64,000 bases of DNA from Candidatus Nitrospira kreftii (GTDB lineage: Bacteria > Nitrospirota > Nitrospiria > Nitrospirales > Nitrospiraceae). The stretch is taken from the NCBI GenBank assembly GCA_014058405.1, contig CP047423.1, positions 682,001 through 746,000 of the forward strand, in the 5' to 3' direction. The position numbers and the translations under genes were made by a program. Every line of letters begins with the position of its first letter. The first letter of the stretch is position 1. This document shows, in pieces, positions 32,822-53,848 of this stretch. Below the pieces are notes generated by a model. That model was not told the origin of the DNA. It did not search any database and was given only the letters and a program-made list of their open reading frames with translations.

Positions 32822-34042
32822 TCATAGAGGGTTCGTTGGTTGTTCCTTTGCTGCGATAGTTTCGGGTGCTATCCCCTCCCCAGTGACGAGGTCATACCCG
32901 GGAGCAGGTTTGACGATCCGCACCTTGTCACCTTCGAGCAGCGCGCTACTGGGGTTATTCACAATACGATCCTCTTCGGAAATCCCCGCTTGGACCTCCA
33001 CAGTGCTGTCGAGCATTTTAGCCACGATAATCGGCTTGTAGTGAATTCGGTCGTCCTCTGTGAGGACGGCTATCTGCGCGCCGTGCTCCTGAAAGACCAT
33101 CGCACTGGTCGGAATCGTTATCACACCTGAGTCCACTGGAGCGGTTAATCGGACGGTGGCGTAGGAGCCTGGCCAGAGGGCGCGGTCCTGGTTATCGATC
33201 GTAAAGACCGTGACCGCGGTGCGTGTGTTCACGTCGAACCCTTTCGCCACGGTCAGGAAGTTAAATGCGAAATGGCGATTGGGGATTTGCGGGACTGTCA
33301 CATCGGCCGTCAGGCCAGGGTTTAAGAAGGGACCAAAATTTGCTGGTACGCTCACAAAGAGTCGCAGTTTATCGACCTCGGCAACGGTAAACAGATTGCT
33401 TTTGGCATTTGAGGTACTGATACTGCCCTCTTTGGACACCAGATCACCGACATTGATATTCCTCTGGATGACAATACCGTCAAAGGGGGACGTAATCTTT
33501 TTAAACCCGATGAAAGCCTCAATGTTCTTGACCTTTTGCTCTGCCGCCGCGACTTTTGCGGCCGCTGACTTCGCCTCGGCGAGTTGCACAGAGATAGCCT
33601 GCTCGGAGAGCGCTTGGTGTTCTCGCATGGCGACGTAGCGCTCGGCGGTCAGCTGAGCCAGTGCGTTCTTGGCACGCTCGGAATCCAGATCTGCATGGGC
33701 CTGGCGGTATTCGGCATCGAGATCCGGTGTGGTGATTTCGGCGAGGACATCGCCTTTCTTCACAAGAGCACCGTAGTCCTTGTACCAGGCCTTCACATAA
33801 CCTTCGACACGCGCATAGATAGGCGCCTCGTACCACCCCTCAATCGTGCCGGGCAGCGTAATGGTTTCGGTTGCAGGCGATGTGTTGGCTTGTATGAGGG
33901 CCACAGATGGTGTGGCGGCTTCAAAGGTGATATCCGCCAATGCTTTAGACTCGTGCTGGCCTTCGACGTATCGGTAAACGAGAAACAGTGGAACCAAGAT
34001 GACAGCTAAAATCACAACAGTTTTTCTGGTCAAGGCATTCAT
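32822..34042 (-). CDS. RND efflux periplasmic adaptor (membrane fusion protein), copy 1
   Basis: 406 residues with an N-terminal anchor helix (VVILAVILVPLFLVYRYV). HlyD-family landmarks follow: the lipoyl half (ITLPGTIEGWYEAPIYARVEGYV, KKGDVLAEITTPDLDAEY), a helical hairpin (about residues 110-170) and the beta-barrel (PFDGIVIQRNINVGDLV, LFVSVPANFGPFL). The membrane-proximal domain includes WPGSYATVRL and ISEEDRIVNNPSSALLEG. It joins the inner-membrane RND pump to an outer-membrane channel; no channel gene is adjacent. The start lies one base after the stop of the pump gene. A close paralogue is encoded at 47391-48644. Confidence 0.9.
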   Translation of the reverse strand: MNALTRKTVVILAVILVPLFLVYRYVEGQHESKALADITFEAATPSVALIQANTSPATETITLPGTIEGWYEAPIYARVEGYVKAWYKDYGALVKKGDVLAEITTPDLDAEYRQAHADLDSERAKNALAQLTAERYVAMREHQALSEQAISVQLAEAKSAAAKVAAAEQKVKNIEAFIGFKKITSPFDGIVIQRNINVGDLVSKEGSISTSNAKSNLFTVAEVDKLRLFVSVPANFGPFLNPGLTADVTVPQIPNRHFAFNFLTVAKGFDVNTRTAVTVFTIDNQDRALWPGSYATVRLTAPVDSGVITIPTSAMVFQEHGAQIAVLTEDDRIHYKPIIVAKMLDSTVEVQAGISEEDRIVNNPSSALLEGDKVRIVKPAPGYDLVTGEGIAPETIAAKEQPTNPL

Positions 34043-34043
34043 G

Positions 34044-37000
34044 TCAGGCGAGCTCCTTTTGCACGGCGGTTCCTCGGTGATAGATCATGGCGTAGACGGA
34101 TGGGACGAAAAATAGTGTGAATAGGGTCGCCACAAACAAGCCGCCCATGACGGCGCGACCGAGGGGCGCATTTTGTGAGTTGGCCATTGCCATCGGGAGC
34201 ATGCCGATGATCATGGCTGCGGCAGTCATGAGCACCGGTCGAATGCGAGCCGTACCGGCTTCTACCGCTGCCAGCACACCGTCGCCATGGATAGCGATCC
34301 GCTCGCGGGCGTAGGACACGAGCAGGATGGAATTAGCAGTTGCCGTGCCCATGGTCATAATGGCGCCCATCAGCGACGGCACAGAAATATTCGTATGGGT
34401 CACGAATAACGCCCAGGCGATACCGGCCAACGCTCCTGGTAAGGCCGTAATGATAATGAAGGGATCGAGCCAGGATTGGAAGTTGACGACGATCAGGAGA
34501 TAAACCAATACGACTGCGGCCAGAAGTCCAAAGAGCATTTCAGCGAGGGCCTTGTGCATCACCTCGGCCTGGCCCTTGATTTCAATCACCGCACCCGTGG
34601 GCAGCTCCCCATCCATCTCGTGTATGACCTTCTGGACATCTGCGAGGACCTCGCCGAGGGACCGTCCTTCTGTGGCAACATAGACATCGATCAGCGGCAT
34701 AATATTCCCGTGCGTGACCGCCCCGGGCGTGCCGACCGGTTTCAGATTCGCCAAGTTTCCGAGGAGCTGTGAATTCACGACTCCTCCCTCCGACGTGGAT
34801 TCGTGACCTTCCTTCGCGACGGGAACGGTCATGAGGTCTTTGAGGCTCGTGAGCTGTGGCTGCGGCGTATACACATTGATCCGATAGGACATGCCGGTCG
34901 CGCGATCAAGCCAATACTTCTGATCGACCTGTTGGCTGCCGGCGGTTGTCACGAGCATGTTATTCCCGAAGTCCGTCTGGTCCAAGTTCATACCAAGCGC
35001 GAACCGTCTATCGGCTTCCGCGAGCAGGGTCGGCATACCCATCGGTTGCTGGACCACCACGTCGGAGGAGCCGGGGATTTGTCGCAACTTCCCCGCCAAT
35101 TTACGGGCATACTCATGGTTGGCATAGATGTCCGGACCGTTGATCTGTACATCGATCGGCGCGAGAGAGCCGAAATTCAGGATTCTCGCGGTGAGATCGG
35201 CCGGTTGGAACGTGAATTCAGTGCCTGGATAGCGGGCACCCAGTCCCTTGCGAAGGATGCGGCGATAGTCCCAGACGGGCGATTGCCCGTTTTTCAACGA
35301 GATGGTGAGGTCGCAGTCCTGGGTGCCGACCGTCGGGGTTGGAATGAAAGCGAGGTTGTGCGCCCCGACCGGAATGCCGCAGTTACTCACGATGGATTCC
35401 ACCTGGCCCGGCAGCAGTTGTTTGACGTCATTCGAGACCAGGGATGTAAGCCGCGCGGCCACCTCGATGCGCGTACCGAGAGGCGCCCGCATGTGCATCT
35501 GCATGATCCCGGACTTGATCTCGGGGAAGAACTCCGTGCCGTTGAAGTAAAAGAGAACAAGAGAGCTCACCGATATCACGAACGAAACCGTGACGAAAGT
35601 GCCACGATGGGCCACCACCAGTTTGAGCTGAGCACTGTAGCCGTCGCGGAAGCGATCAAAACTGTCTTGGAACCACTGCTGGAAGCGGACGAAAACATTC
35701 CCCGATGGGTCCGCTTTGTGGTGGCCTTCCTGCCCGGGCCCGCTCGAGACATGATGAGGCTTCAGAATATATTTCGCCATGGTCGGCACCAGTGTGTACG
35801 TCAGAATAAAGGAGGCCAGCATCGAATAGATGACCGCTTTTGCCATTGGCGGGAAGACCCAGCCGGAGAGCCCGGTCAGATGAAACAGCGGCACCCAGAC
35901 AATCGTAATGGCGAGCGTGGCCACGAATGTGGGCAGCAGGATCTGATTGGCGGCGTCGATGATCGCCTCCTCCAGCGGCTTACCCGAAGCAAGGTGGGTG
36001 TCGACATTTTCGATCATGACTGCGGCGTTGTCGACGAGAATGCCGACGGCCAGCGCCAATCCGCCCAGGGTCATGACGTTAATCGACTCTTCTTGAATAT
36101 GCAGTAGGATGAGTGCGCTCAAGATAGAGAGGGGGAGCGAAGTGAGGACAATGAGTGTCGGGCGCCAGGATCCCAGCAGCAGGAGCACGATGAGGCCGAC
36201 CAGCGCGGCGGCGACCACCATTTCATGGACGACGTCCGCAATCGCGTCTTTCACGAATTGTGAGGCGTCGATGAGGAGTTTGACTTCTACATCCTTGGGC
36301 AGAACATCCTGAATGCGTGGGATGATGTCCTTAATTCCGTCCACGACTTCCAAAGTGGAGGCTTCGCTGCTTTTCATTACCACAATGATGACAGCCTGCT
36401 GTCCCTCCACCAGCACGGCGTTCGTTTGTACTCGACCGGCGAGGCGAGTTGTGGCGACATCACGCAAATGAATGAAGGCATTACCGTCTCGTTTGATCGG
36501 GATCTCGTCGAAATCCTCGATCTTCAAAGCCGACGCATTGGTCAGGACGAGCCAGTCAGTGGCTTTGAGCTTGATATCCCCTCCAGGCAGCACCAGATTC
36601 TGCCTGGAAACGGCCTCGTGGATATCCGCTGGAGTCAGGTGACGGGCGAGGAGTTTCTGCTGATCCAGATTGATCATCACCTGCATGTCTTGGCCGCCAT
36701 AGGGGTGCGGCAGGATCGCACCGGGAATTGTGACGAGGAGGGGGCGGATCCGCATGATGGAGAGGTTGTAGAGTTCCGCCGGAGTCAGAGTCTCGGACGT
36801 GATTTGCAGAGTGGCTACCGGTACCTGAGAGGGGAACAGCCGCATGACCATGGGCGCGTTGATATCTGGAGGTAGCGCCTTGACAGTCGTCTGCGCAATC
36901 GCCGCGATATCGGCTTCGCTGCCACCCAGGTCGACTCCGTCCTGAAGATACACATTGATAATGGCATTGCCGAATAGAGAGTTACTCCATATATATTTGA

Positions 37001-37235
37001 TACCCTCTACAGTCTGGGTGAGAAAGCGCTCGAATACGTATGTGATACGACCCTCGACATCCGCCGGCATCAGGTTGTCATAGATCCAAACGATCGAGCT
37101 CACAGGAATTTGGATGACCGGAAAGACGTCAGTCGGGGCTTCAGTCACCGCCAGCGCCCCGAAGACCACGATGAGGACGGCCAGGACGACAAAGGTATAA
37201 GGCTTACTTAGGGCTATCTGGACGAGCTTATTCAT
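34044..37235 (-). CDS. RND efflux pump inner-membrane subunit, copy 1
   Basis: 1063-residue proton-driven transporter with 12 transmembrane helices in two halves. Recognisable parts are the first helix (YTFVVLAVLIVVFGALAV), the pore-domain segment LPPDINAPMVMRLFP, and helices 2-6 with GGLALAVGILVDNAAVMIEN (helix 4, proton relay acidic residue). In the second half are the segment IVSNCGIPVGAHN and GAIMTMGTATANSILLV. The sequence belongs to the AcrB/HAE-like pumps without obvious metal-binding (HME) signatures, so the substrate is not known. It is the first gene of an operon with the adaptor, behind a predicted sigma54 promoter at 37416-37431. Confidence 0.92.
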   Translation of the reverse strand: MNKLVQIALSKPYTFVVLAVLIVVFGALAVTEAPTDVFPVIQIPVSSIVWIYDNLMPADVEGRITYVFERFLTQTVEGIKYIWSNSLFGNAIINVYLQDGVDLGGSEADIAAIAQTTVKALPPDINAPMVMRLFPSQVPVATLQITSETLTPAELYNLSIMRIRPLLVTIPGAILPHPYGGQDMQVMINLDQQKLLARHLTPADIHEAVSRQNLVLPGGDIKLKATDWLVLTNASALKIEDFDEIPIKRDGNAFIHLRDVATTRLAGRVQTNAVLVEGQQAVIIVVMKSSEASTLEVVDGIKDIIPRIQDVLPKDVEVKLLIDASQFVKDAIADVVHEMVVAAALVGLIVLLLLGSWRPTLIVLTSLPLSILSALILLHIQEESINVMTLGGLALAVGILVDNAAVMIENVDTHLASGKPLEEAIIDAANQILLPTFVATLAITIVWVPLFHLTGLSGWVFPPMAKAVIYSMLASFILTYTLVPTMAKYILKPHHVSSGPGQEGHHKADPSGNVFVRFQQWFQDSFDRFRDGYSAQLKLVVAHRGTFVTVSFVISVSSLVLFYFNGTEFFPEIKSGIMQMHMRAPLGTRIEVAARLTSLVSNDVKQLLPGQVESIVSNCGIPVGAHNLAFIPTPTVGTQDCDLTISLKNGQSPVWDYRRILRKGLGARYPGTEFTFQPADLTARILNFGSLAPIDVQINGPDIYANHEYARKLAGKLRQIPGSSDVVVQQPMGMPTLLAEADRRFALGMNLDQTDFGNNMLVTTAGSQQVDQKYWLDRATGMSYRINVYTPQPQLTSLKDLMTVPVAKEGHESTSEGGVVNSQLLGNLANLKPVGTPGAVTHGNIMPLIDVYVATEGRSLGEVLADVQKVIHEMDGELPTGAVIEIKGQAEVMHKALAEMLFGLLAAVVLVYLLIVVNFQSWLDPFIIITALPGALAGIAWALFVTHTNISVPSLMGAIMTMGTATANSILLVSYARERIAIHGDGVLAAVEAGTARIRPVLMTAAAMIIGMLPMAMANSQNAPLGRAVMGGLFVATLFTLFFVPSVYAMIYHRGTAVQKELA

Positions 37236-37415
37236 GCGAGATACCTCTCAGCGGATAGGGGATGTTGTTTCATGAAGACCAGCGTCGCATCAGATGCGAC
37301 CACTTTCTGGTTAATTCCCATCTAAGTGCGATTCCTACTCATCCATCTTCCGACGCGACCAACGCCACGTTTGTTATCGAAGGAATGTGAAAACGGCAGC
37401 ATGAGCTAAGTGGTG

Positions 37416-37431
37416 AGCAAAGAGTTTGCCT
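37416..37431 (-). promoter_or_regulatory. Predicted sigma54 (-24/-12) promoter of RND operon 1
   Basis: On the minus strand the bases from 37431 down read AGGCAAACTCTTTGCT. The consensus is TGGCAC-N5-TTGCA/T, and the essential GG and GC are at the correct 10-base spacing; only the first T differs. Transcription would start near 37404, about 170 bases before the pump start codon. Repeat elements suitable for an enhancer-binding protein lie just upstream. Confidence 0.65.
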
Positions 37432-37447
37432 GGGAAGACGAAAGACC

Positions 37448-37567
37448 TGTGTCACGAAATCCTGTGGCAATTCGATGCGCTAGGTGTGACCGAAAGAAAA
37501 TTTGCGTGCCATAAGGGCACACCGGTGCCAAAGGTATCCGGTTGACACAGGCGCATCTGTGCCACAG
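37448..37567. promoter_or_regulatory. Putative enhancer-binding sites upstream of RND operon 1
   Basis: A cluster of related words: TGTGTCAC (37448-37455), CTGTGGCA (37462-37469), the palindrome GTGCC-N5-GGCAC (37506-37520), GGTGCCA (37524-37530), TTGACACAG (37542-37550) and CTGTGCCACAG (37557-37567). They start 17 bases and end about 136 bases upstream of the sigma54 box, the range used by NtrC-type activators. Similar TGGCA/TGCCA words recur before the other sigma54 promoters in this window. Confidence 0.55.
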
Positions 37568-37933
37568 GTCCAATCAGACAAGGGATGATAGACGTTTATT
37601 GGTTAGTGATGGATGAATGTTTTTTCTATGCGATCCTTCTCATGGATCGAGGCGGGATGGTGCTTTCATAGGGCACAAAATATGGCACGGAGTAGACACC
37701 GAATAGATGACAGTCTCGGGAGCTAATCATCGCGGCATCGCTTATGAATGTCACACCATGAGATATGATGGGTTGAACCGTCTTCACTACGCCAAGCGGT
37801 TCCCCGATTCAGCAAAATATAAAATATGGGTAGTAGGGAGTCTTACGGCGGTGAAGAATAGGTCAGCACAGGTTTTCGGTTCATCTCGCCTGTCGCAGAA
37901 TTTCTCCATTGATTCAATGCATTGGAGATATCC

Positions 37934-39550
37934 ATGAAGTCATTCAAGTTTCACGGCATCATGGTTTGGGTCACGATCACAGGGGTGGTACTCGTTACAT
38001 TTTCGATTCTCTTTATCGCACTTCTTGAAGGTCAGATCATTGATCGTGCGGGAGCGCACAACCGGGAGGTTGCGTTTTTGCTCCTTTCCCAGTCAGTCAG
38101 CGCCATGATCAGCCAAGCGGGGGGAATCCAAGACGTGCAGGCTCTTGAACATTTGATTCATGAAGTCAGCGAGCTTCGGCCAGGAATTTTGCGGCTCTCG
38201 GTGTATGAGATGTCGCCTCAATCCAGTTCCCTCATTGTGAGCACCGAGCCTCAGTCGGTGCCAAAAGTGTTGGATCCACAGGAACGGATGAAGATTGAAG
38301 TGGGGGACTCCGTCACGCAACTCGAGGATGCATCGGGAGAAAGGGCCTTGCGCATGACAGCTCCGATTGTGATCGACGGCAAGGTCGTTGCGGCATTACG
38401 TGGACTGTTTTCTGTGAAGGAGTACGACGACCTCATCAAACAGGAAACTGAGCTGGCCAAATCAATTGGCATCGGCGTTGTGGTCGTCACATCGCTGACC
38501 TTTTGGCTCTTGATCCGGGTCAAGGTCCATCGGCCTGTTCATCAACTGTTGCATGCCATACGAAGTGTCGTAGGGGAAGATATATCCGGTCATGCGCCGA
38601 TCCAAGGCCCCTCGGAAATCCAAGAGGTGGCGACTCAATTCAATAGAATGCTCGATCGGGTGCGCGAGGCCGGGGTAGAAAAGGATCGTCTCTTGGAGGA
38701 GGTGCGCCATTTCAACGAAACGCTTCGGATTCGGGTAGGGGATGCAACTGAGGAACTGCAGCGAGCGAATTTCGAACTGGTCGAAGCAAGGCTTGTCGCT
38801 GAACGAAATCAGCGTTTAGCTGCCCTGGGAGAATTTTCCGCCACAGTGGCCCATGAATTGGGCAACCCCTTGAACGCACTTTCCGGTCATCTGCAAATGC
38901 TCGTAGGCGCGACTGATTATGCAAGTCGCCAGCGCCATTTGGCCATCATTCGATCGGAGGTCAACCGCATGGTCAGTATCATCAAGCAACTATTGGAGCA
39001 AACCCATGTAGAGCTCCGGTCAGGTTGCGTGAATCTTAATAAAACCATCCACGAGGTGACGGCCTTGCTCTCGCCCGGTCTGCCGAGTCAGCACGTAACG
39101 CTGAAGACCGACTTGCAAGCCGACCTACCACCGGTTGCCGGCGACACTCGTGCGCTGCATGGGTTGCTGTTCAATCTGGTCACCAACGCCGCCCAGGCAA
39201 TGCCGCTCGGCGGAGAATTGACCATCCGGACTAGAGTTGCGTGTGGAGACAGACCTCCTGGAATTGTCATGGTGGGCGAAGGCGCTCCGATCGAAGAAGC
39301 GGCCATTCGCCTGACGATCGCGGACACGGGCGCAGGGATTCCTTCTGAGCACCTGTCACGAATTTTTGAACCGTTCTTCACGACCCGGCATGACCAAGGT
39401 GGGACGGGACTTGGGCTGGCAATCTGTCACCGAGTGGTGACAGACAGCGGCGGCCGGCTGGCCGTGAGGAGCCACGTAGGGCACGGAACTGAGTTTACCA
39501 TTGATCTACCAATCTGGAATACCGAGCGAGGCATACGGAGACATCAATGA
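37934..39550 (+). CDS. Sensor histidine kinase of an NtrC-type two-component system
   Basis: 538 residues from ATG 37934 (GGAG site seven bases upstream). Two membrane helices (about 12-34 and 180-200) enclose a periplasmic sensing domain of about 145 residues. A HAMP linker, a coiled segment and a histidine kinase core follow. The phospho-accepting His307 lies in VAHELGNPLNALSGH. The ATP-binding domain shows NLVTNAAQAMP (N box), IADTGAGIPSEH, IFEPFFTT and GGTGLGLAICHRVV. Its stop overlaps the regulator start (ATGA), so the two form a pair. The periplasmic signal is unknown; location beside an efflux operon suggests envelope or toxicant stress, as for ZraS-like kinases. Confidence 0.9.
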   Translation: MKSFKFHGIMVWVTITGVVLVTFSILFIALLEGQIIDRAGAHNREVAFLLLSQSVSAMISQAGGIQDVQALEHLIHEVSELRPGILRLSVYEMSPQSSSLIVSTEPQSVPKVLDPQERMKIEVGDSVTQLEDASGERALRMTAPIVIDGKVVAALRGLFSVKEYDDLIKQETELAKSIGIGVVVVTSLTFWLLIRVKVHRPVHQLLHAIRSVVGEDISGHAPIQGPSEIQEVATQFNRMLDRVREAGVEKDRLLEEVRHFNETLRIRVGDATEELQRANFELVEARLVAERNQRLAALGEFSATVAHELGNPLNALSGHLQMLVGATDYASRQRHLAIIRSEVNRMVSIIKQLLEQTHVELRSGCVNLNKTIHEVTALLSPGLPSQHVTLKTDLQADLPPVAGDTRALHGLLFNLVTNAAQAMPLGGELTIRTRVACGDRPPGIVMVGEGAPIEEAAIRLTIADTGAGIPSEHLSRIFEPFFTTRHDQGGTGLGLAICHRVVTDSGGRLAVRSHVGHGTEFTIDLPIWNTERGIRRHQ

Positions 39551-40950
39551 ATGATTCGCCTTCGATCCTCGTCGTGGACGACGACCAGAGGAATCGAGAG
39601 ATGATGGCCGAAGCCTTGAACCAGGCTGGCTTTGAAGTTGACACCGCACGTGATGGTGTAGAAGCAATGAGCAAGGCCAATGTACTCCCCTATGACGCCG
39701 TATTGAGCGATATCCACATGGCCCCCTGTTCCGGGTTGGACCTATTGGATTCTCTTCGCAAGACTATGCCGGAAATGCCCATCGTCCTCTTGACCGCATT
39801 CGGCTCCGTCGATACGGCAATCCAAGCCATGAAGCAAGGGGCGTTCGATTACATCGCGAAACCGGTGAATCTGGACGACCTCGTGGTCACGATGAAGCGG
39901 GCCGTCGAACACCGGCGTCTGATCGAGGATAATCGCACACTCAACCGTGCATTCAGTGAGCGGCCTCGGGCTGCTTCTCTGATGGGGCAAAGCAAAAAGA
40001 TGGTGGAGGTCTTCAAACTCATCGGAAAAGTCGCCCACAGCCGGACAGCCGTCTTGATTCATGGAGAAAGCGGCACCGGCAAGGAATTGATCGCCCGGGC
40101 GATTCACGACAACAGCCCGCGTTCGATACACCGGTTCGTCGCCGTCAATTGCAGCGCGATTCCAGACTCATTGCTCGAAAGCGAACTGTTCGGCCATACC
40201 AAAGGTTCATTCACCGGCGCCCACACAATGCGGCATGGCTTACTTGAGGAGGCGAGCGGTGGCACATTCTTTCTTGATGAGATCGGGGATCTCACTCCGG
40301 CAGGGCAGGCCAAACTCCTGCGCGTTCTTCAAGAAGGAGAAATTAGAAGGCTCGGCAGCAATGAGTCGGTGCGAGTTGATTTACGTATTATCGCGGCTTC
40401 GCGTCGAAATCTCGCTGAGCTGGCGGCGGCTGGTCGATTTCGTGAAGATTTGCTGTACCGGCTGAACACGGTCACGATTTTAATTCCACCGCTTCGGGAA
40501 CGCCCTGAAGATCTTCCTCTACTGGCCGAATTCTTCCTGGCACGGTATGGCGACCAAAAGGAAGTTCCTGTTACGTCTTTTTCCTCTTCCGCCATGCACG
40601 CGCTGGCAGAATATTCCTGGCCGGGGAATGTGCGTGAGTTAGAACATGTTGTGGAACGAGCGGTGGCGCTAGCCACCCATGCGATTCTTTCAATCGATGA
40701 TCTCCCGCCCGAAGTCCTTCAGAAAGACAAAAGTACTCCGAGTCACCTACCCATTCTCCCCGGCACGCTCAAAGCGTTACAACGGGAACAGGTGGCTAAA
40801 ATGCTGGAGGCGACTCACGGCAACAAGGAGCGAGCGGCGCGTTTGCTTGGTATCAGCAGGCGAACGCTGTATCGGCTTATTGAACGATACGGTCTCGGCA
40901 AACCTCAGGCTGCGATCGAGGCCGACGATTCGGATCCCACCAGTTCCTGA
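39547..40950 (+). CDS. NtrC-family sigma54-dependent response regulator
   Basis: 467 residues in three domains. The receiver (1-125) has the acidic pair in VVDDDQRN, the phosphorylated Asp55 in LSDIHMAPCSGLD and the lysine in YIAKPVN. The AAA+ domain (about 140-370) has Walker A GESGTGKELIARAIH, the sigma54-contacting loop GSFTGAH (GAFTGA variant) and Walker B GGTFFLDEIGDL, plus the arginine finger region RFREDLLYRLN. The Fis-type helix-turn-helix at the C-terminus reads GNKERAARLLGISRRTLYRLIERYGL. Such proteins activate sigma54 promoters from upstream sites, and four such promoters are predicted within 14 kb. It probably controls at least some of them. Confidence 0.93.
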   Translation: MNDSPSILVVDDDQRNREMMAEALNQAGFEVDTARDGVEAMSKANVLPYDAVLSDIHMAPCSGLDLLDSLRKTMPEMPIVLLTAFGSVDTAIQAMKQGAFDYIAKPVNLDDLVVTMKRAVEHRRLIEDNRTLNRAFSERPRAASLMGQSKKMVEVFKLIGKVAHSRTAVLIHGESGTGKELIARAIHDNSPRSIHRFVAVNCSAIPDSLLESELFGHTKGSFTGAHTMRHGLLEEASGGTFFLDEIGDLTPAGQAKLLRVLQEGEIRRLGSNESVRVDLRIIAASRRNLAELAAAGRFREDLLYRLNTVTILIPPLRERPEDLPLLAEFFLARYGDQKEVPVTSFSSSAMHALAEYSWPGNVRELEHVVERAVALATHAILSIDDLPPEVLQKDKSTPSHLPILPGTLKALQREQVAKMLEATHGNKERAARLLGISRRTLYRLIERYGLGKPQAAIEADDSDPTSS

Positions 40951-40991
40951 TTCAGACACCATCCTATCGTCGGGCCGTCATTGTGCCTTTG

Positions 40992-41006
40992 TGGCATGCA
41001 GTGCCA
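40992..41006. promoter_or_regulatory. Putative activator site TGGCA-N5-TGCCA (module A)
   Basis: Perfect palindrome TGGCATGCAGTGCCA, inside the longer shared block TGTGCCTTTGTGGCATGCAG that recurs with few changes at 42736-42756. Its centre is about 135 bases upstream of the -12 box of the sigma54 promoter at 41123-41138. Confidence 0.55.
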
Positions 41007-41122
41007 GCCTGTCATCAGGTCTTTCCTCATGTTCACCGGGATCAGTGCGATCCCATTCCATATATAGGCGGATTCACAAAATAAATCAGTGCAGGGAAGA
41101 GAACGACATTCAGGATCTCCAC

Positions 41123-41138
41123 TGGCATCACGCTTGCT
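41123..41138 (+). promoter_or_regulatory. Predicted sigma54 promoter (module A)
   Basis: TGGCATCACGCTTGCT matches TGGCAC-N5-TTGCA/T, with one change at the sixth base. Transcription would start near 41150, about 100 bases before the first small gene at 41248. The promoter is nearly identical to the one at 42869 (TGGCATCACGTTTGCT). Confidence 0.75.
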
Positions 41139-41247
41139 CATGATTGCAGTGAGGCGCACGAAAGACCATTGTTGAAAACCCGGAGTTCTAGTTATCGAGG
41201 AATTGAAGAATTGTTCGTAGCGAATCCTAGGGGGGAGGGACAGGTAC

Positions 41248-41397
41248 ATGATGCCAGCTTATATATTCCTATTCCTGATTGTGTGCCTTTATCTATGGAT
41301 CGCCGTCAGCGTTTGGAGCTGGACTACTCATAGCAGGTACGGCGCACGAAGCCATACGCACGTAACGAACAAAGTCAATCGAGTGAGAGGAACATGA
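41248..41397 (+). CDS. 49-residue single-helix membrane protein
   Basis: Begins MMPAYIFLFLIVCLYLWIAV, one transmembrane helix, followed by a basic soluble tail (RYGARSHTHVTNKVNRVRGT). A purine-rich GGGGGGAGGGAC site lies a few bases upstream. The gene is the first after the sigma54 promoter at 41123, and its stop overlaps the next ATG (ATGA). No family is recognised. Very small membrane proteins of this sort often modulate larger membrane partners, but none can be named. Confidence 0.55.
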   Translation: MMPAYIFLFLIVCLYLWIAVSVWSWTTHSRYGARSHTHVTNKVNRVRGT

Positions 41398-41513
41398 AGA
41401 AATGCCTGGCATCAAAGTTCATCGGCTTGTCGCAGGAAATTACTCGTTGTGAACGACGGGGCCTTCAGTCCCTCATTCGGTCGGCCGGAGGGAACTTGGT
41501 TGTTGACCCATGA
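41394..41513 (+). CDS. 39-residue protein coupled to the preceding membrane peptide
   Basis: Starts MKKCLASKFIGLSQEITRCE and ends GGNLVVDP. The ATG overlaps the preceding stop (ATGA), and AGAGGAAC lies just upstream. Two cysteines are present. No homologue is recognised. It could be a real small protein or part of a longer gene broken by a frameshift; no good continuation was found in other frames. Confidence 0.4.
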   Translation: MKKCLASKFIGLSQEITRCERRGLQSLIRSAGGNLVVDP

Positions 41514-41559
41514 TCTGAAGTGGCCCGTTCTCGCCAACAGATCTTCCAAAGGAGGACAC

Positions 41560-41832
41560 ATGACATGCCGACGCTGCGGGGGCCTAATGATCGTTGAGCC
41601 CATGTATCATGCGGCGGAATCGAATGCTTCCGAAGGACATCACGAAGCCAGATGCTTAAACTGTGGAAACATCGAGGATGGTGTGATCTATACCAATCGG
41701 CTGGATCCACCATCGACGGGAACAGGTCCGCGTCACAATATTGTCGTCGAAGTAGAATCCGGCTGGGAGAGGGAAAGACATAGTCGAAAGAAGGACAGAA
41801 AACCGGCTGCCACGACTCGGCTTGTTCATTGA
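41560..41832 (+). CDS. Small zinc-ribbon protein
   Basis: 90 residues from ATG 41560, which has an AAAGGAGGACAC ribosome site; longer in-frame starts lack one. Two CxxC knuckles (MTCRRCGGLM and ARCLNCGNIEDG) about 30 residues apart suggest one structural zinc. The C-terminal half is basic and charged (WERERHSRKKDRK), which could contact nucleic acid. It is the third gene of the run behind the sigma54 promoter at 41123. Unknown function. Confidence 0.65.
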   Translation: MTCRRCGGLMIVEPMYHAAESNASEGHHEARCLNCGNIEDGVIYTNRLDPPSTGTGPRHNIVVEVESGWERERHSRKKDRKPAATTRLVH

Positions 41833-41971
41833 TCGTTCAGTCTTAGGCAATGAGTATCCCAACCGAGCCATCGTCAGAGTTGTGGTGGTCGGCCAGTCCA
41901 CAATCTGGTTAGTGAGTGAGAAGATGGAGGGTGGTCATGAGTGTGAGCCCTTCTTCGCTATGTACTGCCTC

Positions 41972-42370
41972 TCACCGAGTCATTAAGAGCGCAGATTGAA
42001 GCTCCATGATCATTTCGGGCGGAATTTCCCGCTCGGCTTCCTGCGCTTGTACCCGCGCATACTCGGCGGCTTTCTCCAGTCGGTGCGCGAAGATTCGCAT
42101 CTGCTTCACGAACTCATCGGTCTCCGGCCCGGGCTGTTTCTTGACAACTAATTCGGCCTCGCGTTCTCGGTGCGTGGCCATGGTATGGAGTTCTCGTGCT
42201 TCCTCGATCCAATACAACATGCGATCTGATGCCCGCAACTGCGGTGCCGTCTGCACCATGGGTGGTGCTCTGAGGGGTGCCGAGGAATATGCCGGACCGG
42301 TTGTCGAACAGGCATCGAGTATCCCGAGTACCGCACATAAGGCGATAAAGTGCATGCTTGTCGGTTTCAT
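41972..42370 (-). CDS. Small lipoprotein, unknown
   Basis: 132 residues from ATG 42370, behind an AAGGAGG site. The signal peptide (MHFIALCAVLGILDAC) ends at a lipobox-like LDAC. After a proline-rich linker the mature part is helical with a charged coil (EEARELHTMATHREREAEL, then AAEYARVQAQEAEREIP). It resembles, in style, the lipoprotein at 43552 but they are not clearly related. It is convergent with the zinc-ribbon gene. Confidence 0.65.
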   Translation of the reverse strand: MKPTSMHFIALCAVLGILDACSTTGPAYSSAPLRAPPMVQTAPQLRASDRMLYWIEEARELHTMATHREREAELVVKKQPGPETDEFVKQMRIFAHRLEKAAEYARVQAQEAEREIPPEMIMELQSALLMTR

Positions 42371-42746
42371 ATAACCTCCTTCGACATGGAAGACACCGTC
42401 ATGGCAAGTTTGTTGTGGGCGTCCAGCGCGGCCACTCACAAATCTTTTCATTTCGTGAACTTGGCGTCCATACAGCATCTGTGTCTGCGGGCAAGCTATG
42501 TCGTGATTTCATGAGACCTTTAAACCGTGACAAATCTCTTCGAATGTACGGAGACTCCAAGGTGAATTCGATCACGCTCGATATGGAGTGAATTCTTAGT
42601 TCGCAATTTCGACATTCGGCGCATAATTTCAGTAGGAGCATAAATTAGACCGGTCCAAAGTAAGGTCGGAAGTTGTCATAACGTATGGTTATGCCCGCAT
42701 CTGTCTCGGGTCCTTCCATCAGCGTCGCCCCTTCGCTGCGCCTTTG

Positions 42747-42761
42747 TGGCATACCGTGCCA
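42747..42761. promoter_or_regulatory. Putative activator site TGGCA-N5-TGCCA (module B)
   Basis: Perfect palindrome TGGCATACCGTGCCA. The flanks (GCGCCTTTG before, then TTGTCACGAAGTCTT after) match module A at 40980-41030 in order and spacing. Its centre lies about 128 bases upstream of the -12 box at 42882. Confidence 0.55.
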
Positions 42762-42868
42762 TCTTGTCACGAAGTCTTGACTGATTACTCTGCCCAGTCG
42801 ATTCCAGCCAGAGACGGAATCACGGAGGAAACACGCATCAATACTAGATCGCAATTCCTTCTCCTCCA

Positions 42869-42884
42869 TGGCATCACGTTTGCT
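42869..42884 (+). promoter_or_regulatory. Predicted sigma54 promoter (module B)
   Basis: TGGCATCACGTTTGCT fits the -24/-12 consensus with correct spacing. It differs from the module A promoter by one base. Transcription would begin near 42896, about 70 bases before the gene at 42969. Confidence 0.75.
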
Positions 42885-42968
42885 GTTAATCGTTCCTAGC
42901 GGCATTAGGCGATCAACACCTCCGAAGGACAGCTTCGGTGGGCAGCATGTCCGAACTAAGAGGACAGC

Positions 42969-43268
42969 ATGCGACAAGGGCACAGCAACAACCTCTCGAA
43001 TGAACAGGAGAGTGGAAGCCATTCTGGAGACCGGCCATCAAGCATGGAATTGATGGAATACATTTTTAATCCAGATCAAGGGATGTGGTTCGGTTGTTTG
43101 AAGGGAAACCCCGATGACCAAGTGTCTGGTGAGTCGTTTGAAGTGCTGCAAGTGAAGTTGCGGCAACTGCATCTCAATCCACGCACCTCAACTCCATTTT
43201 TGGCCTGCTCCAATGAGGCACTGATTTGCTGGTACCGGGAGAGACGTATGTCTTCATGTCCGTATTGA
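42969..43268 (+). CDS. Hypothetical protein, first gene of sigma54 module B
   Basis: 99 residues with an AGGAC site before ATG 42969. A polar N-terminus of about 28 residues is followed by YIFNPDQGMWFGCLKGNPDD and LQVKLRQLHLNPRTSTP, which reads like a small folded domain. An internal ATG (43044, MELMEY) would give a shorter product. No family is recognised. It is followed by two very short open frames and then a lipoprotein and an SPFH gene on the same strand. Confidence 0.5.
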   Translation: MRQGHSNNLSNEQESGSHSGDRPSSMELMEYIFNPDQGMWFGCLKGNPDDQVSGESFEVLQVKLRQLHLNPRTSTPFLACSNEALICWYRERRMSSCPY

Positions 43269-43280
43269 GGAGTATAGGCA

Positions 43281-43355
43281 ATGGGAAATGCAAGATATGC
43301 TGAACGGAAGGTTTCTCTCCCGCTGCGAATACACGAGATTGAGGAAGCAAATTAA
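43281..43355 (+). CDS. Possible 24-residue peptide
   Basis: Reads MGNARYAERKVSLPLRIHEI and ends EEAN. It is listed because a GAGGAG site lies nine bases before the ATG and the next short frame starts right at its stop (TAATG). It may be a small peptide or the remains of a longer gene. Nothing more can be said. Confidence 0.3.
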   Translation: MGNARYAERKVSLPLRIHEIEEAN

Positions 43356-43407
43356 TGGCAGCACATCGGTTGAAATGGTTTGTAGCAGGTCCTTGGAGAG
43401 ACTAGAG

Positions 43408-43515
43408 ATGACATTCCTCGAAGTTCTGATGGTGTCGGTTTCCTTCCTATGGCCGGTTGTCAATGTATGGAGTAGCCAGGCAGCTCGAGGTTCGAGTACG
43501 CAAAGCGAAATGTAA
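43408..43515 (+). CDS. Possible 35-residue membrane peptide
   Basis: Reads MTFLEVLMVSVSFLWPVVNV followed by a short polar tail. A GGAGAG site lies upstream and the hydrophobic stretch could span the membrane. It is comparable in kind to the 49-residue protein of module A. The open frame extends upstream to 43288 without a ribosome site. Confidence 0.35.
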   Translation: MTFLEVLMVSVSFLWPVVNVWSSQAARGSSTQSEM

Positions 43516-43551
43516 TTCAACAATCAAAGTTGGCCGAGAGGGATCAGACGA

Positions 43552-43923
43552 ATGAAACGCTTCTCTCCGGACGTCGTACTGCTATTGGTACTAGGACTCG
43601 CCATCATGATCGGCTGCACGAGTCCGGCAACCAAAGATGAACTTGAGCTAACAACCTACGACCCAGCCCAAGATCACCAGAAAATTGCTGCCTACTATAA
43701 TCACGAAGCAGCAAAGCTGCGACAAGCCGCGGAGGAAATGTCGGTTCGCATTACGGTGTATGAGCGCCTCTTCGGTCCGACATCGGATTGGGTCACAGGC
43801 ACGCGACTCCTGGCCCAATCGTATGAGGATGCGGCGCAAGAGTATGAACGGAAGGCGCGTATACATTTGGAGCGCATCCGGGTGTCGCCGACTCCGCCTG
43901 AGGCTGGATTGAGATCTCAGTAG
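43552..43923 (+). CDS. Small lipoprotein, unknown
   Basis: 123 residues. The signal peptide (VVLLLVLGLAIMIGC) ends in a clear lipobox, MIGC. The mature part is almost wholly helical: HQKIAAYYNHEAAKLRQAAE and AQSYEDAAQEYERKARIHLE suggest a coiled coil. A GAGAGGGATC site precedes the ATG. It precedes the SPFH lipoprotein gene by 41 bases, so both may be on the module B sigma54 transcript and both products would sit in the envelope. Confidence 0.7.
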   Translation: MKRFSPDVVLLLVLGLAIMIGCTSPATKDELELTTYDPAQDHQKIAAYYNHEAAKLRQAAEEMSVRITVYERLFGPTSDWVTGTRLLAQSYEDAAQEYERKARIHLERIRVSPTPPEAGLRSQ

Positions 43924-43964
43924 GTCGACCGGCAAGCCGCGTTCTGCTGAGAAGGGAGGAAACT

Positions 43965-44822
43965 ATGCGATTCATTTCACAGACCATACTACTTGCCATG
44001 ATATGGCTCTCGCTGCAAGCCTGCGGGACCAGTGTCCAGCCTGGTGAGCGAGGATTACGTTGGTACCCATTAACCGAAGGACTGACCACCGAAACGCTCA
44101 AGAGTGGGTTCTATTGGCGAGCTCCCTGGAACCAAATCTACCGATATGACGTGAGGTGGCGCAGTTACACGGAAACCGTTGATGCCCTGAGCTCAGACGA
44201 CTTACTGGTCATCCTCCATGCCGCCATCGTCATGCGACCGATCCCCGAAGAGGTGTATTTCCTCGCCCAGGAAATCGGGCCAGATTTCTATACGCGCGTC
44301 GTGAAGCCGGAATTGTTGGCGGCCGTTCGGACCGTTGTGTCCAACTATCCTATGGTCACCGTACCGGAAAAAAGCTCAGAAATAAGCAGCAAGATACAGG
44401 CAGTGGTGGTGGAGAAACTCAAGGGTCGTCACCTTGAAGTATCGAGCATTGCCCTGGCTGATATCGATCTGGCCAAAGTCGTGTTGGATGCTGTCGAACG
44501 CAAACAAGCGAAAGAACAAGAGAAGGAGCAAAAGGAGTTCGAGCTCATCATTGCGGAGAAGGACGCAGAAATTATGCGCCGACGAGCCAGAGGTGAGGGA
44601 GATTCAGTTCGGATCAGATCTGAGGGAGAGGCGGAAGGGATGAAAATTCGTGCAGCCGGTCAGGCAAAAGCACAGGAAACGATCGCCCAGACCCTGACGT
44701 CGGAGTATCTCCGATTCAAGCTCTACGACAGTTCCAATTCCAAATTTGTGCTGTTACCGGACAAGCTGAATGTGCCGGTTATCATCAACCCAGGGACTGA
44801 TCATTCAAGGACCTCGCAATAG
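43965..44822 (+). CDS. SPFH/prohibitin-like lipoprotein
   Basis: 285 residues. The N-terminus is a lipoprotein signal (LLAMIWLSLQAC) rather than the usual transmembrane anchor. The SPFH domain follows: GLRWYPLTEGL, SGFYWRAPWNQIYRYDVR, then LVILHAAIVMRPIPEEVYFL and VVKPELLAAVRTVVSNY. From about residue 170 a long charged helix (ERKQAKEQEKEQKEFEL, then RARGEGDSVRIRSEGEAEG) gives the oligomerising coil. The end LLPDKLNVPVII is typical of the family. SPFH proteins form ring scaffolds that organise membranes and guard proteases such as FtsH. A strong GGGAGG ribosome site precedes the start. Confidence 0.85.
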   Translation: MRFISQTILLAMIWLSLQACGTSVQPGERGLRWYPLTEGLTTETLKSGFYWRAPWNQIYRYDVRWRSYTETVDALSSDDLLVILHAAIVMRPIPEEVYFLAQEIGPDFYTRVVKPELLAAVRTVVSNYPMVTVPEKSSEISSKIQAVVVEKLKGRHLEVSSIALADIDLAKVVLDAVERKQAKEQEKEQKEFELIIAEKDAEIMRRRARGEGDSVRIRSEGEAEGMKIRAAGQAKAQETIAQTLTSEYLRFKLYDSSNSKFVLLPDKLNVPVIINPGTDHSRTSQ

Positions 44823-45092
44823 GAACTCGACTCTGGCCGCTGTCGAGGTCCTGTTATACCGAGCATGTTGGACGGGACGGGATGACTCGACGTGGTCTGG
44901 CAGCCCGTCCTTGAGGAACAAGAACCACGATCTGCAGCTATTGGGAGGGACTTCTAGTGATCGAGCTGAGCTATGTCATGACGGAATCGCTGGTTCGGGT
45001 CAGGGCACCGCACACACGATGCCGTAGTCGCAGAAAAGTCGAGAGTCAACAGCGACTCGCAACATCCCGGGGATAAGTGCTCGGAGGTGATC

Positions 45093-46115
45093 ATGAGTGT
45101 GAAGAAGGCATCGCTATGGGGAATTATCTTAGCCGGAGGGGAAGGAGAGCGGCTGAAAGGATTCGTTCGAGAGCAAGTCGGATCAGCCATACCGAAGCAG
45201 TTTTGCGCCTTTGTCGGTCGGCGGTCGATGTTGGAACGCACCATTACTCGAGCACGACTCCTGATTCCGTCTGAACGACTCGTCGTCATCGGAACGGCTC
45301 ATCACGACTCATACATGGTTCGAAGCCTCGGCACATCACCGCCCAGCACGGTATTGCTCCAACCGGCAAACCGCGATACGGCACCCGGCATTCTGTTACC
45401 GCTTATCCATGTTCTGAATAAGGAACCGCAGGCAGTGGTGGCGATTCTCCCGGCCGATCACTTCATCGTACCCGGTCGTCGATTTATGTGTGCCATAGCG
45501 GCTGCGAGGCATTTCGTGGAGGATCAGAATGTAGACTGTCCTATTCTTCTGGCAGTGAAACCTGACCGGCCAGAATCGGAGTACGGCTGGATCGAGCCTG
45601 GAGATCTGGTGGAGCACGACGGCCCACAAACCATTCACCAAATCGCGTGCTTTGTCGAGAAGCCTCCTCATGACCAAGCGGAGCGATTACTGAAGGAGGG
45701 ATGGCTCTGGAATACGATGGTCATCGTCGTGCGAGCCAGAGCAATGATGGATTTGATGGCGAAGCATGTGCCGGACATTGCTGCGCGCTTCGCCCTGTTG
45801 CAACGGTTTTTGGGGAGCGTAAGAGAGCAAGACTTGATCAATGAAGTGTATCAGGCGATTCCTAGAATTAATTTTTCGACTTCCATCTTGGCAGGGCGGG
45901 ATACGAGGTCGTTGGTGCTTCCGGTGGAGAACATACACTGGAGCGATTGGGGAACCAAGGAGCGCATATTCAACGCCGCTGAGGCGCTGGGTCTGACACC
46001 ATCGGTTTCGGTCCCAACACCTCAGGTTTCTGTGACGGTTGCGACTGAGACTCTCCCACACGCCCGATATCAGCGAATTCCTTCTCTGGTCCGGTCAACA
46101 CAGAAAGGAGATTGA
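45093..46115 (+). CDS. Mannose-1-phosphate guanylyltransferase-like nucleotidyltransferase
   Basis: 340 residues from ATG 45093 (CGGAGGTG site). The start ILAGGEGERLKG with PKQFCAF is the nucleotide-binding signature of GDP-mannose pyrophosphorylases; NRDTAPGILLPL, ILPADHFIVP and IACFVEKPPHDQA follow. The HWSDWGTKERIF element replaces the usual WSDVGSW. It has the nucleotidyltransferase domain only, with no fused isomerase. The likely role is supply of GDP-mannose or a related NDP-sugar for surface polysaccharide; the exact sugar cannot be told. No glycosyltransferase genes are adjacent. Confidence 0.8.
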   Translation: MSVKKASLWGIILAGGEGERLKGFVREQVGSAIPKQFCAFVGRRSMLERTITRARLLIPSERLVVIGTAHHDSYMVRSLGTSPPSTVLLQPANRDTAPGILLPLIHVLNKEPQAVVAILPADHFIVPGRRFMCAIAAARHFVEDQNVDCPILLAVKPDRPESEYGWIEPGDLVEHDGPQTIHQIACFVEKPPHDQAERLLKEGWLWNTMVIVVRARAMMDLMAKHVPDIAARFALLQRFLGSVREQDLINEVYQAIPRINFSTSILAGRDTRSLVLPVENIHWSDWGTKERIFNAAEALGLTPSVSVPTPQVSVTVATETLPHARYQRIPSLVRSTQKGD

Positions 46116-46118
46116 CCG

Positions 46119-46175
46119 ATGCGTTTAATCCGTTTCATCGGATTGACCCTGATATGTTATTGGTTCGAAAGCTGA
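46119..46175 (+). CDS. Possible 18-residue hydrophobic peptide
   Basis: Reads MRLIRFIGLTLICYWFES. It starts three bases after the nucleotidyltransferase stop and has a very good ribosome site (GAAAGGAG). It may be translated by coupling, or be the N-terminus of a lost gene. From 46176 to 46485 nothing else convincing is seen. Confidence 0.3.
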   Translation: MRLIRFIGLTLICYWFES

Positions 46176-46485
46176 GAGACCGCCCCGCTGTTTTCCCCGA
46201 AGGTCGTGAATAATGTCGAAACGAACACCCTTGAGTTCCCAGGACCGGTGAAGCAGGGCATTATCTTCCCCAGGATAACGGTACTGCTCGGAAGGTGAAA
46301 TTGCGGAAAGAGGTAGCTCATGGTACGTCGTTCATCGAAGGGAATTGCCATTCTTGCCGATGAGCAGTCCGTCGGAAAGTGATCCGGGTATGACATGCCG
46401 GAATCATAATATGGGAAGGCGACGGACGGCATCAGATAGCCGGATATGTTGGAAGTCGTAGCTCTAAGAAAGGGGGTGCGGCAGT

Positions 46486-46773
46486 ATGGATGTGAAGGGA
46501 TTTATTATTCAAGACGGCCAAGGAAGAGATTTTGTATTGTTATGCGAGCAGTCCCATGCGGGGTTGAGGAACATGTTTTCACTCCGAGGCTGGCAGCGGC
46601 GGCGACCGGTTCCGCTGCAATGTACAGAGCAGGACCTTCGCCGGATTGTCGCAGATGTGCTGCTCACCCTCGATGCCCTATTTACAAGCCTCCCAAGATT
46701 CATGGGGGATCCTGATAAAGCGAATAGAACCGATCTGGGCGTTCCAGCGACACACCGACATTTAGAACGCTAG
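46486..46773 (+). CDS. Hypothetical protein
   Basis: 95 residues from ATG 46486, with an AAAGGGGG site upstream. It begins MDVKGFIIQDGQGRDFVLLC, a two-strand start, then has a basic middle (RGWQRRRPV) and a helix (LRRIVADVLLTLDALFTSL). A second frame (46446-46715) overlaps but lacks a ribosome site. No family is recognised. The single-domain response regulator follows 87 bases later. Confidence 0.5.
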   Translation: MDVKGFIIQDGQGRDFVLLCEQSHAGLRNMFSLRGWQRRRPVPLQCTEQDLRRIVADVLLTLDALFTSLPRFMGDPDKANRTDLGVPATHRHLER

Positions 46774-46860
46774 TATGAATGGGCCGAGTCAACCGGAGAA
46801 CTTCGCCGGTTTCAGTGGGGTATACATCGAAAACGAGGTGTTTCACAAACAGGAGGCCCT

Positions 46861-47277
46861 ATGAATGGCAATGGCAAACGGGTCCTTGTGGTGGAGGATG
46901 ATGCGGACGCAGGCTTGCTCCTGTCGACGCTCCTGGACCAGATTGGTTATAACGTGCTGCAGGTATGTGATGGAACGCACGCGCTCCTAGAATTAAACAA
47001 ACGCCGTTTCGATGTCGTGATTGCGGATTATTCGATGCCGTCGATCTGTGGAATGGAGTTGCTGAATCCCATGCGCGCCCGTGGTCTTAAGACACCGGTT
47101 ATTCTGGTGTCCGGAATGTCGGCGAATATCTCGTCCGTTGACAAGGGGTTGCGCCCATTCGCTTGGCTTCGAAAGCCGTATGAAGGCAGCGCGTTGCTCG
47201 ATCTGGTTTCCGTGGCATCCCACATAGCGGCGCGATCAGGCCATGAGGATCCGACCGCAGTGGCTGCGACGCGGTGA
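46861..47277 (+). CDS. Single-domain response regulator (CheY-like)
   Basis: 138 residues, a receiver domain with no output domain. The acidic cluster is VVEDDADAG, the phospho-acceptor aspartate is in VVIADYSMPSICGMELL, the Thr/Ser in ILVSGMS and the lysine in AWLRKPYEG. ACAGGAGG precedes the start. It could act as a phosphate relay or protein-binding switch. It lies far from the kinase at 37934 but in the same cluster, so cross-talk is possible. The downstream gene is convergent (RND adaptor copy 2). Confidence 0.85.
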   Translation: MNGNGKRVLVVEDDADAGLLLSTLLDQIGYNVLQVCDGTHALLELNKRRFDVVIADYSMPSICGMELLNPMRARGLKTPVILVSGMSANISSVDKGLRPFAWLRKPYEGSALLDLVSVASHIAARSGHEDPTAVAATR

Positions 47278-47390
47278 AAGGCACGTTTTTCAATGATGAG
47301 ACTTGATGGATCACATATGTCGGTGTCTTCCAGTGCGAGCCATCTCGGTCCACTCGGGCTGCAAGCATTCAATTGGAACGTCTTCCGACA

Positions 47391-48644: not shown

Positions 48645-48645
48645 A

Positions 48646-51846: not shown

Positions 51847-52087
51847 GCATGCAACCGAAATCTGTGCCGAATACTCACGATTACACTTCCCCGATCGATG
51901 TGAGTAATGTAGCGAAAGGGCTGGTTCCAGATGAGCGCTTCCCCGATGAAGAGCGACCCATCACGCCTACAGACGCATGGTCGAACCATAACGTTCCACA
52001 GTCATGATCGATGTCGTCGTAGCCTGGCATAAATTCTTTCCTCAGCTTGATCAACCATCCAGACCCTCAACCGGATGGACAAGGGAA

Positions 52088-52908: not shown

Positions 52909-53229
52909 TCATTTGGCTTTACTCTTGGCCCCTTTCTGGTCACTTTCCTTACCGGCTTGACCACCTACCCTCTTTCCTCCCACCGAACCATACTTCGTCG
53001 TCCTCTCTTCTAAAGCGGGCTCCTGGCCAGCCTGACCGCCCATGCGAGTTGTCTCAGTTGTAACGTTGCGCTTTTCGGAATGGACCTCTATGCCGGCCTG
53101 TCCCCCTTTCCTGTCGCCCGGCTGTTCGGTGGTCGTGGCGCGTGTCTCCGCCACTGCCACCCATGCAAGGCTAAGACTGAGCACTACACTCCAGAACGTG
53201 ATTTTGATAATGTCTCGAATGGATCTCAT
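52909..53229 (-). CDS. Small secreted protein with three GGQAG repeats
   Basis: 106 residues from ATG 53229, behind a GGGAGGAAG site. A signal peptide (ITFWSVVLSLSLAWVAVAE) is followed by a polar, basic mature part. The word GGQAG appears three times (RKGGQAGIEV, RMGGQAGQEP, RVGGQAGKES), about 25 residues apart. The tail is lysine-rich (KGAKSKAK). The stop codon touches the right end of the IS5 element, so the original C-terminus or 3' region may have been altered by the insertion. Looks intrinsically disordered; no family recognised. Confidence 0.6.
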   Translation of the reverse strand: MRSIRDIIKITFWSVVLSLSLAWVAVAETRATTTEQPGDRKGGQAGIEVHSEKRNVTTETTRMGGQAGQEPALEERTTKYGSVGGKRVGGQAGKESDQKGAKSKAK

Positions 53230-53593
53230 GGCTTCCTCCCTTCTGTAGTTGAGTGCATGCTCCACTTAGACAACCTCTCCTCAAGGATATGCGATCACGC
53301 CGCACGCACCGTGTCCTCGACAAAGTAAGCCGAAATGTTTACTACCATCCCTGTTTTCATAGGCTCGCTCTCGTCGACGCGTGAGATCGCTCCTCGCTGT
53401 GGGATGGAACACACGACCTACACTCAACTCGAGCAACATGTATGCCGAACGACGATTTCACTCAGATGTTCGGCGAAACAAATAATGAAATTAGGAAATT
53501 GTACGGTTCATGGCAAAGACAAAGTGTAGTGTAGGATCAGGTGAGAATGGTCGAGTGGGGAATCTTGCGACGATTAACTTGAGTGATCGTGTC

Positions 53594-53628
53594 TGTGCCA
53601 CTCTGATCCAATGTGACACAATGACACA
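53594..53628. promoter_or_regulatory. Putative activator sites upstream of the third plus-strand sigma54 promoter
   Basis: TGTGCCA (53594-53600) and TGTGACACAATGACACA (within 53611-53628) resemble the words before RND operon 1 (TGTGTCAC, TTGACACAG). They lie 100-130 bases upstream of the promoter at 53725-53740. Confidence 0.45.
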
Positions 53629-53724
53629 CTGTTCCGACGAGCTGCATCTCGGCAACAAAGGATTTGCGGGTTCTTCTTTCCCGAGATTGGCCTATTCTTG
53701 GTCCATGAGACCAGCTTCTCTCGA

Positions 53725-53740
53725 TGGCATTTCTTTTGCT
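53725..53740 (+). promoter_or_regulatory. Predicted sigma54 promoter
   Basis: TGGCATTTCTTTTGCT has GG and GC at the proper spacing and differs from consensus only at the sixth base. It would drive the broken small gene at 53849 and possibly zwf further on. Transcription would begin near 53752. Confidence 0.7.
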
Positions 53741-53848
53741 CGACTCGCATGATTAGCGGTTCGATATCGGCCGCAAGAGTATAGATCGTTGCCTCTTTCA
53801 AACCTGATTGGGCGGATACCCTCAGACAACCAGGGGCGTGAGGATCAG

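Follow-up and report, generated by a model that had tools for sequence, protein, structure and literature searches.

Results of our analysis indicate that two signals repeated in the window (the whole 64,000-nt stretch analysed here, within which all coordinates are given; the genome size is 4.1 Mb) are most likely real switches, each combining a docking site and a promoter for the two-component regulator encoded next to them. Judging from the sequences, it is very probable that each of these modules unites an enhancer and a promoter and belongs to a sigma54-dependent, two-component regulon run by the adjacent kinase-regulator pair. The comparison of genomes speaks for this reading through the conservation of the modules, their nearly fixed spacing, the co-occurrence and proximity of modules and kinase-regulator pair, and an operator core that the modules have in common with a neighbouring efflux pump operon. 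The central features of the locus are:

37934..39550, + strand: sensor histidine kinase with a predicted extracytoplasmic PDC/Cache-type sensor, HAMP, HisKA and HATPase domains (Pfam; AlphaFold/Foldseek)
39547..40950, + strand: NtrC-family response regulator, the proposed activator (Pfam; orthologues at 76-94% in module-bearing genomes)
40982..41016, + strand: module 1 operator (predicted UAS), TGTGCCTTTGTGGCATGCAGTGCCAGCCTGTCATC (exact match; none in shuffles)
41123..41138, + strand: module 1 sigma54 -24/-12 promoter (predicted), TGGCATCACGCTTGCT (consensus match)
42736..42771, + strand: module 2 operator (predicted UAS), CGCCTTTGTGGCATACCGTGCCATCTTGTCACG (exact match; none in shuffles)
42869..42884, + strand: module 2 sigma54 promoter (predicted), TGGCATCACGTTTGCT (consensus match)

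The initial annotation had described one layout occurring twice, at 40980-41138 and 42736-42884, with a sigma54 promoter about 115 bases after a palindrome, and both statements hold. The sequence GCCTTTGTGGCATNCNGTGCCANCNTGTCA is found exactly at 40985-41014 and 42740-42769 and, according to the pattern search, nowhere else in the window; shuffled sequence contained no match to this 30-base operator pattern with up to 3 mismatches. The palindrome-to-sigma54 gap is 116 bases in module 1 and 107 bases in module 2. The conserved block is opened by an extra element, CTGTGYC, directly 5' of TTTGTGGCA, the half-sites of the module 1 operator are TGTGYC, TGGCAT, TGCCA and TGTCAT, and inverted repeats are present in both blocks. 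The sigma54 consensus is represented by TGGCATCACGCTTGC at 41123-41137 and by TGGCATCACGTTTGC at 42869-42883, and both sites match TGGCAY-N5-TTGC, with GG and GC at -24 and -12, exactly. The idea that the operator itself is a decayed second sigma54 promoter was rejected, since the GC at -12 does not fall in register and the block forms a palindrome. The scan for sigma70 promoters and terminators yielded chance-level matches only.

As the exact long pattern matched no more than 2 genomes and was too strict, the related genomes were searched with degenerate patterns and profiles. A degenerate pattern identified 9 modules in 6 of the 79 genomes of the genus, and its reversed control none; the bare palindrome TGGCA-N5-TGCCA with one mismatch was uninformative genome-wide (175 matches vs. 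128 for the reversed control). In an alignment of 10 modules (A1), the TGGCA and TTGCT columns are invariant. A sequence profile (R1), for which ten modules of 6 training genomes were used, recovered module 2 (99.9 bits, E 2.8e-28) and module 1 (83.8 bits, E 2.7e-23) as the only strong sites in their own 4.1-Mb genome, two further matches (E 0.17 and 0.33) being at chance level. Strong matches (E <= 1.2e-4) were present in 19 of the 79 genus genomes, 13 of them outside the training set, and a search of 236 genomes of the order matched 22, all belonging to one family and three lying outside the genus. In the case of L209, no convincing site could be recognized on reading of the sequence.

The consensus of an alignment of 27 modules is CTGTGYCTTTGTGGCATACCATGYCAGnCTGTCACG ... 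TGGCATCGCGTTTGCT. CTGTG and TGGCA are separated by a distance of 126-131 in 23 of 26 modules, and the operator-to-promoter gap across the genus modules is 103-116 bases, which fits the location of NtrC-family sites about 80-200 bases upstream. The bases between the signals, which had been called dissimilar, are indeed much less conserved but are not random: the spacer averages about 0.5-0.9 bits per column vs. 1.0-1.5 in the two signals. The elements are thus conserved in other Nitrospira, the comparison that had been proposed as a check, and the earlier suggestion of a dedicated regulon gains support from a module that, as far as the genomes compared indicate, keeps a nearly fixed spacing and is found in 19 of the 79 genomes of the genus, almost exclusively in those that also carry the adjacent kinase-regulator pair. 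Three modules lie within 3.5 kb in genome G008 (contig L074, 3526-7112), leading to a receiver protein, to a universal stress protein and a receiver protein, and to a 99-aa/SPFH operon, respectively. In three other genomes (G056, G020 and G054; loci L118, L121 and L127), modules precede a large protein of about 620 aa.

The kinase-regulator pair is located directly upstream of module 1, the end of the kinase gene overlapping the start of the regulator gene by 4 bases. The regulator comprises receiver, sigma54 AAA+ and Fis HTH domains (PF00072, PF00158, PF25601, PF02954) and, with its cognate kinase, has the composition of an NtrC-family two-component system. The predicted fold of the kinase sensor (AlphaFold) is matched in Foldseek by those of WalK and CitA (E 1.6e-6 to 4e-5; TM by target 0.6-0.7) at a sequence identity of 14-16%. 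The kinase is present in 19 of the 79 genus genomes, and modules are found in 18 of these 19 vs. 1 of the 60 genomes that lack it (Fisher p 1.3e-15, a value not corrected for kinship, which overstates the number of independent events because the genomes are related). The single module-bearing genome in which no full kinase is present, G053, has an N-terminal part of it where a contig ends, adjacent to the pump promoter, and in each of the 13 genus genomes matched by R1 outside its training set the kinase gene is present, at least as a fragment. Genome G002 encodes a divergent pair (kinase 40%, regulator 58%) and has no modules. In 13 genomes, a regulator copy has one or more modules within 5 kb; 15 of 28 modules are near such a copy, and the remainder are far away or on other contigs.

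The region between the kinase gene and the divergent RND efflux operon contains a related pair of signals, directed towards the pump:

34044..37235, - strand: RND efflux permease, divergent from the kinase (NCBIfam; tblastn in relatives)
32822..34042, - strand: RND periplasmic adaptor (NCBIfam TIGR01730, above cut-off)
37505..37542, - strand: RND-operon operator (predicted), ACCGGATACCTTTGGCACCGGTGTGCCCTTATGGCACG (conserved block in the kinase-RND intergenic alignment of 17 loci)
37417..37431, - strand: RND-operon sigma54 promoter (predicted), AGGCAAACTCTTTGC (second conserved block of the same 17-locus alignment)

Only two islands of this intergenic region align well across the 17 loci, and both read towards the pump: the operator GGnTACCTTTGGCACA-CTGTGTAATTGTGGCACG and the sigma54 site CCAGGCAnACaCCTTGCT. 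A pump-promoter profile (R2) matches the window at 37414-37541 on the minus strand (75 bits) and matches the same 19 genomes as R1, an agreement that is only partly independent, as the 14 training sequences of R2 come from genomes that it matches. The pump operator has N3 or N4 spacing and a slightly different sequence (TTTGGCAC...GTGT), so that we infer, across this difference, that one protein reads both operator types. The initial annotation had overlooked this opposite-strand pump promoter (37413-37542) as well as the likely regulator (39547-40950). A second RND adaptor and permease pair, similar to the first, is located at 47391-51846, and a DDE transposase (IS) at 52119-52892 stands between this second pump and zwf. 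In some relatives (G063, G055 and others), a second RND copy comes with an additional copy of the regulator and has the pump promoter in a weaker form. Beyond the first pump, at lower coordinates, the window encodes the B and A subunits of topoisomerase VI (26068-28164 and 28171-29274), mainly an archaeal and plant enzyme that is present here in a bacterial genome, followed by a ResIII/DEAD helicase (29290-30891).

Two diverged relatives (L133 and L134), the regulators of which are 67-68% identical to that of the window, have TTGGCACACTCGTGCCAA and GTGGCACGAGTGTGCCAA just 3' of the regulator gene. Their operator is 105 bases upstream of a GGGCAT-TTTTGCT sigma54 site, and this promoter is followed by a frame resembling the zinc-ribbon gene (CxxC) and then by nucleotidyltransferase and receiver genes. 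R1 and R2 miss these sites, which were recognized on reading of the DNA that follows the regulator gene and hence are independent of the profiles.

The sigma54 modules could be real and their operator could nonetheless be read by another NtrC-family activator, the adjacent pair being a mere neighbour. Nitrospira genomes are indeed rich in sigma54 activators (more than 100 loose candidates at first look), and almost half of the modules are distant from any regulator copy; however, module presence tracks the kinase-regulator pair across the 79 genomes, the operator core also occurs between the kinase gene and the pump operon, immediately 5' of the former, and the operator stands 3' of the regulator gene in the diverged relatives as well, which makes this explanation improbable. 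It is very unlikely that the modules represent a mobile or duplicated DNA element whose likeness results from recent copying and not from regulatory constraint. While two copies in the window and three in 3.5 kb of G008, two of the latter alike over their whole length, would agree with copying, conservation is concentrated in the operator and sigma54 boxes and is far lower in the spacer, the spacing is held as the intervening sequence changes, the first-gene families differ between modules, and the arrangement persists at 67% regulator identity. We regard the copying explanation as already largely refuted.

The inverted repeats in both blocks might also point to a structured RNA or a recombination site. 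We consider this extremely unlikely, as the repeats are short, operator-like half-sites, nearly every copy has, at a fixed distance, a -24/-12 sigma54 consensus in which GG and GC are invariant, and the Rfam search of 37000-56000 returned no RNA family match. The reading of the modules as targets of the adjacent NtrC-type regulator is the one that we favour.

The predicted targets of this regulator behind the two modules of the window, together with one weak candidate further downstream, are:

41248..41397, + strand: 49-aa putative membrane protein, first ORF of module 1 (GGGAGG upstream)
41560..41832, + strand: 90-aa CxxC...CxxC zinc-ribbon-like small protein (ribosome site AAGGAGG; module-linked relatives in 6 genomes)
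42969..43268, + strand: 99-aa protein, first gene of module 2 (leads the module-linked genes in most of the 9 genomes having this family)
43281..43355, + strand: 24-codon frame MGNARYAERKVSLPLRIHEIEEAN (compared by eye with module-linked families)
43552..43923, + strand: small lipoprotein without a Pfam family above cut-off (module-linked in 8 genomes)
43965..44822, + strand: SPFH/Band 7 protein, 285 aa, with an N-terminal lipobox-like LQAC (PF01145, E 1.3e-29, 104 bits)
45093..46115, + strand: sugar nucleotidyltransferase, mannose-1-phosphate guanylyltransferase-like (PF00483; below NCBIfam cut-off)
46861..47277, + strand: single receiver-domain protein (PF00072)
53593..53740, + strand: weak tentative module TGTGCCACTCTGATCCAATGTGACAC ... 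TGGCATTTCTTTTGC, before glucose-6-phosphate dehydrogenase at 54234-55670 (R1 10.6 bits)

The runs of very small genes that had been noted behind both modules are thus seen behind module 1 (49 and 90 aa), whereas behind module 2 genes of 99 and 123 aa give way to the SPFH and nucleotidyltransferase genes. Similarly, the products are undescribed in part only, the SPFH lipoprotein, lipoproteins, Usp and receiver domains of the set being recognizable. Counted by genomes, the commonest module-linked gene is that of the SPFH protein (14), followed by those of single receiver domains (12), the 99-aa family (9), the MADxRYSKR family (9) and Slp (4), and the nucleotidyltransferase is near modules in 3; Usp, SpoIIAA-like/Usp and Slp genes stand behind modules in relatives (Pfam assignment). 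A search for relatives of the 49-aa ORF found none, and it may not be a gene. The frame at 43281-43355 seems to be a truncated member of the 55-65-aa MADxRYSKR family, which occupies this place in 9 other genomes. Codon-position differences favour coding in the MADRY, zinc-ribbon, lipoprotein (0.16/0.17/0.46 for the small lipoprotein), receiver and SPFH families. In the 99-aa gene this signal is weak, and the case for coding is its recurrent position and conserved residues; its product has no Pfam or NCBIfam match, and the predicted structure contains a beta-beta-beta-alpha core (residues 25-75) that is weakly HicB-like (AlphaFold, fold search).

The site before zwf (53588-53740) has a perfect sigma54 consensus and a poor operator-like block. 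It was left tentative and not accepted as a third module, given its 10.6 bits, its absence from the genome-wide R1 matches at E up to 10, and its lack of conservation upstream of zwf in G034; zwf could be a weak member of the regulon.

The proposed mechanism would begin with the kinase (37934-39550) sensing a condition of the periplasm or cell envelope and phosphorylating the regulator (39547-40950), which would then bind the clustered half-sites TGTGYC - TGGCAY-N3/4-RTGYCA - TGTCACG. The bound regulator would form an AAA+ ring and contact and remodel the sigma54 polymerase about 105 bases downstream at TGGCATCRCGYTTGCT. NtrC-family activators are known to bind their sites, assemble into AAA+ rings and remodel sigma54 polymerase, and these steps of the proposal are drawn from this established mechanism. 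The divergent RND efflux operon, the zinc-ribbon operon and the 99-aa/lipoprotein/SPFH operon would be switched on; in relatives the targets may include universal stress proteins, SpoIIAA-like/Usp fusions, Slp lipoproteins and receiver-domain proteins. We infer the binding of these sites by the regulator, the phosphorylation trigger and the envelope-stress signal. The PDC/Cache sensor, together with the RND pump, lipoproteins and SPFH protein among the predicted targets, suggests envelope stress as the stimulus. More tentatively, and with the odds in our opinion somewhat against it, the system may be an envelope-stress response specific to the Nitrospiraceae, whose NtrC-type regulator acts through a clustered TGGCAY-N3/4-RTGYCA operator and controls an RND pump, a lipid-anchored SPFH protein with a lipobox, an associated lipoprotein, and two new small-protein families. 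If so, the SPFH-lipoprotein operon would encode a new membrane-protecting machine facing the periplasm.

Among known systems, ZraSR and AtoSC are alike in pairing a sensor kinase with a receiver-AAA+-Fis regulator that activates sigma54 promoters, ZraSR being a system related to envelope stress and metals. The best NCBIfam matches of the regulator include AtoC and ZraR; it reaches no equivalog cut-off among its best-scoring matches (score/cut-off: AtoC 481.8/714, ntrC 439.2/558.6, ZraR 410.1/760, pspF 270.7/443.55). To our knowledge, an RND pump, an SPFH lipoprotein, the 99-aa gene and receiver domains are not neighbours of ZraSR or AtoSC. The Psp system is likewise a sigma54-dependent envelope-stress programme, and the target set described here includes a membrane-associated SPFH protein; however, PspF has neither a receiver domain nor a cognate kinase, both of which the regulator of the window possesses, and among the genes behind the modules examined none was recognized as a PspA-type target. 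The kinase resembles the PDC (Cache) sensors of WalK and CitA in its predicted sensor fold and differs in that its partner is a sigma54 activator. HicB N-terminal domains are the best fold matches of the 99-aa protein, but the match is weak and not significant (Z 4.8), and no HicA was recognized among the module-linked families. The literature within our reach, which did not extend to most subscription journals, contains no description of a sigma54 activator regulon like this in Nitrospira. The architecture is of a known kind, and the regulator, operator, gene set and small families appear to be undescribed. Nitrospira are major nitrite oxidisers, some of which oxidise ammonia completely. Our analysis provides a predicted regulator, operator, promoters and targets, including conserved small families without Pfam assignment, in about 20 genomes, and opens the stress physiology of these bacteria, which are hard to manipulate, to testing in vitro or by means of existing RNA-seq.
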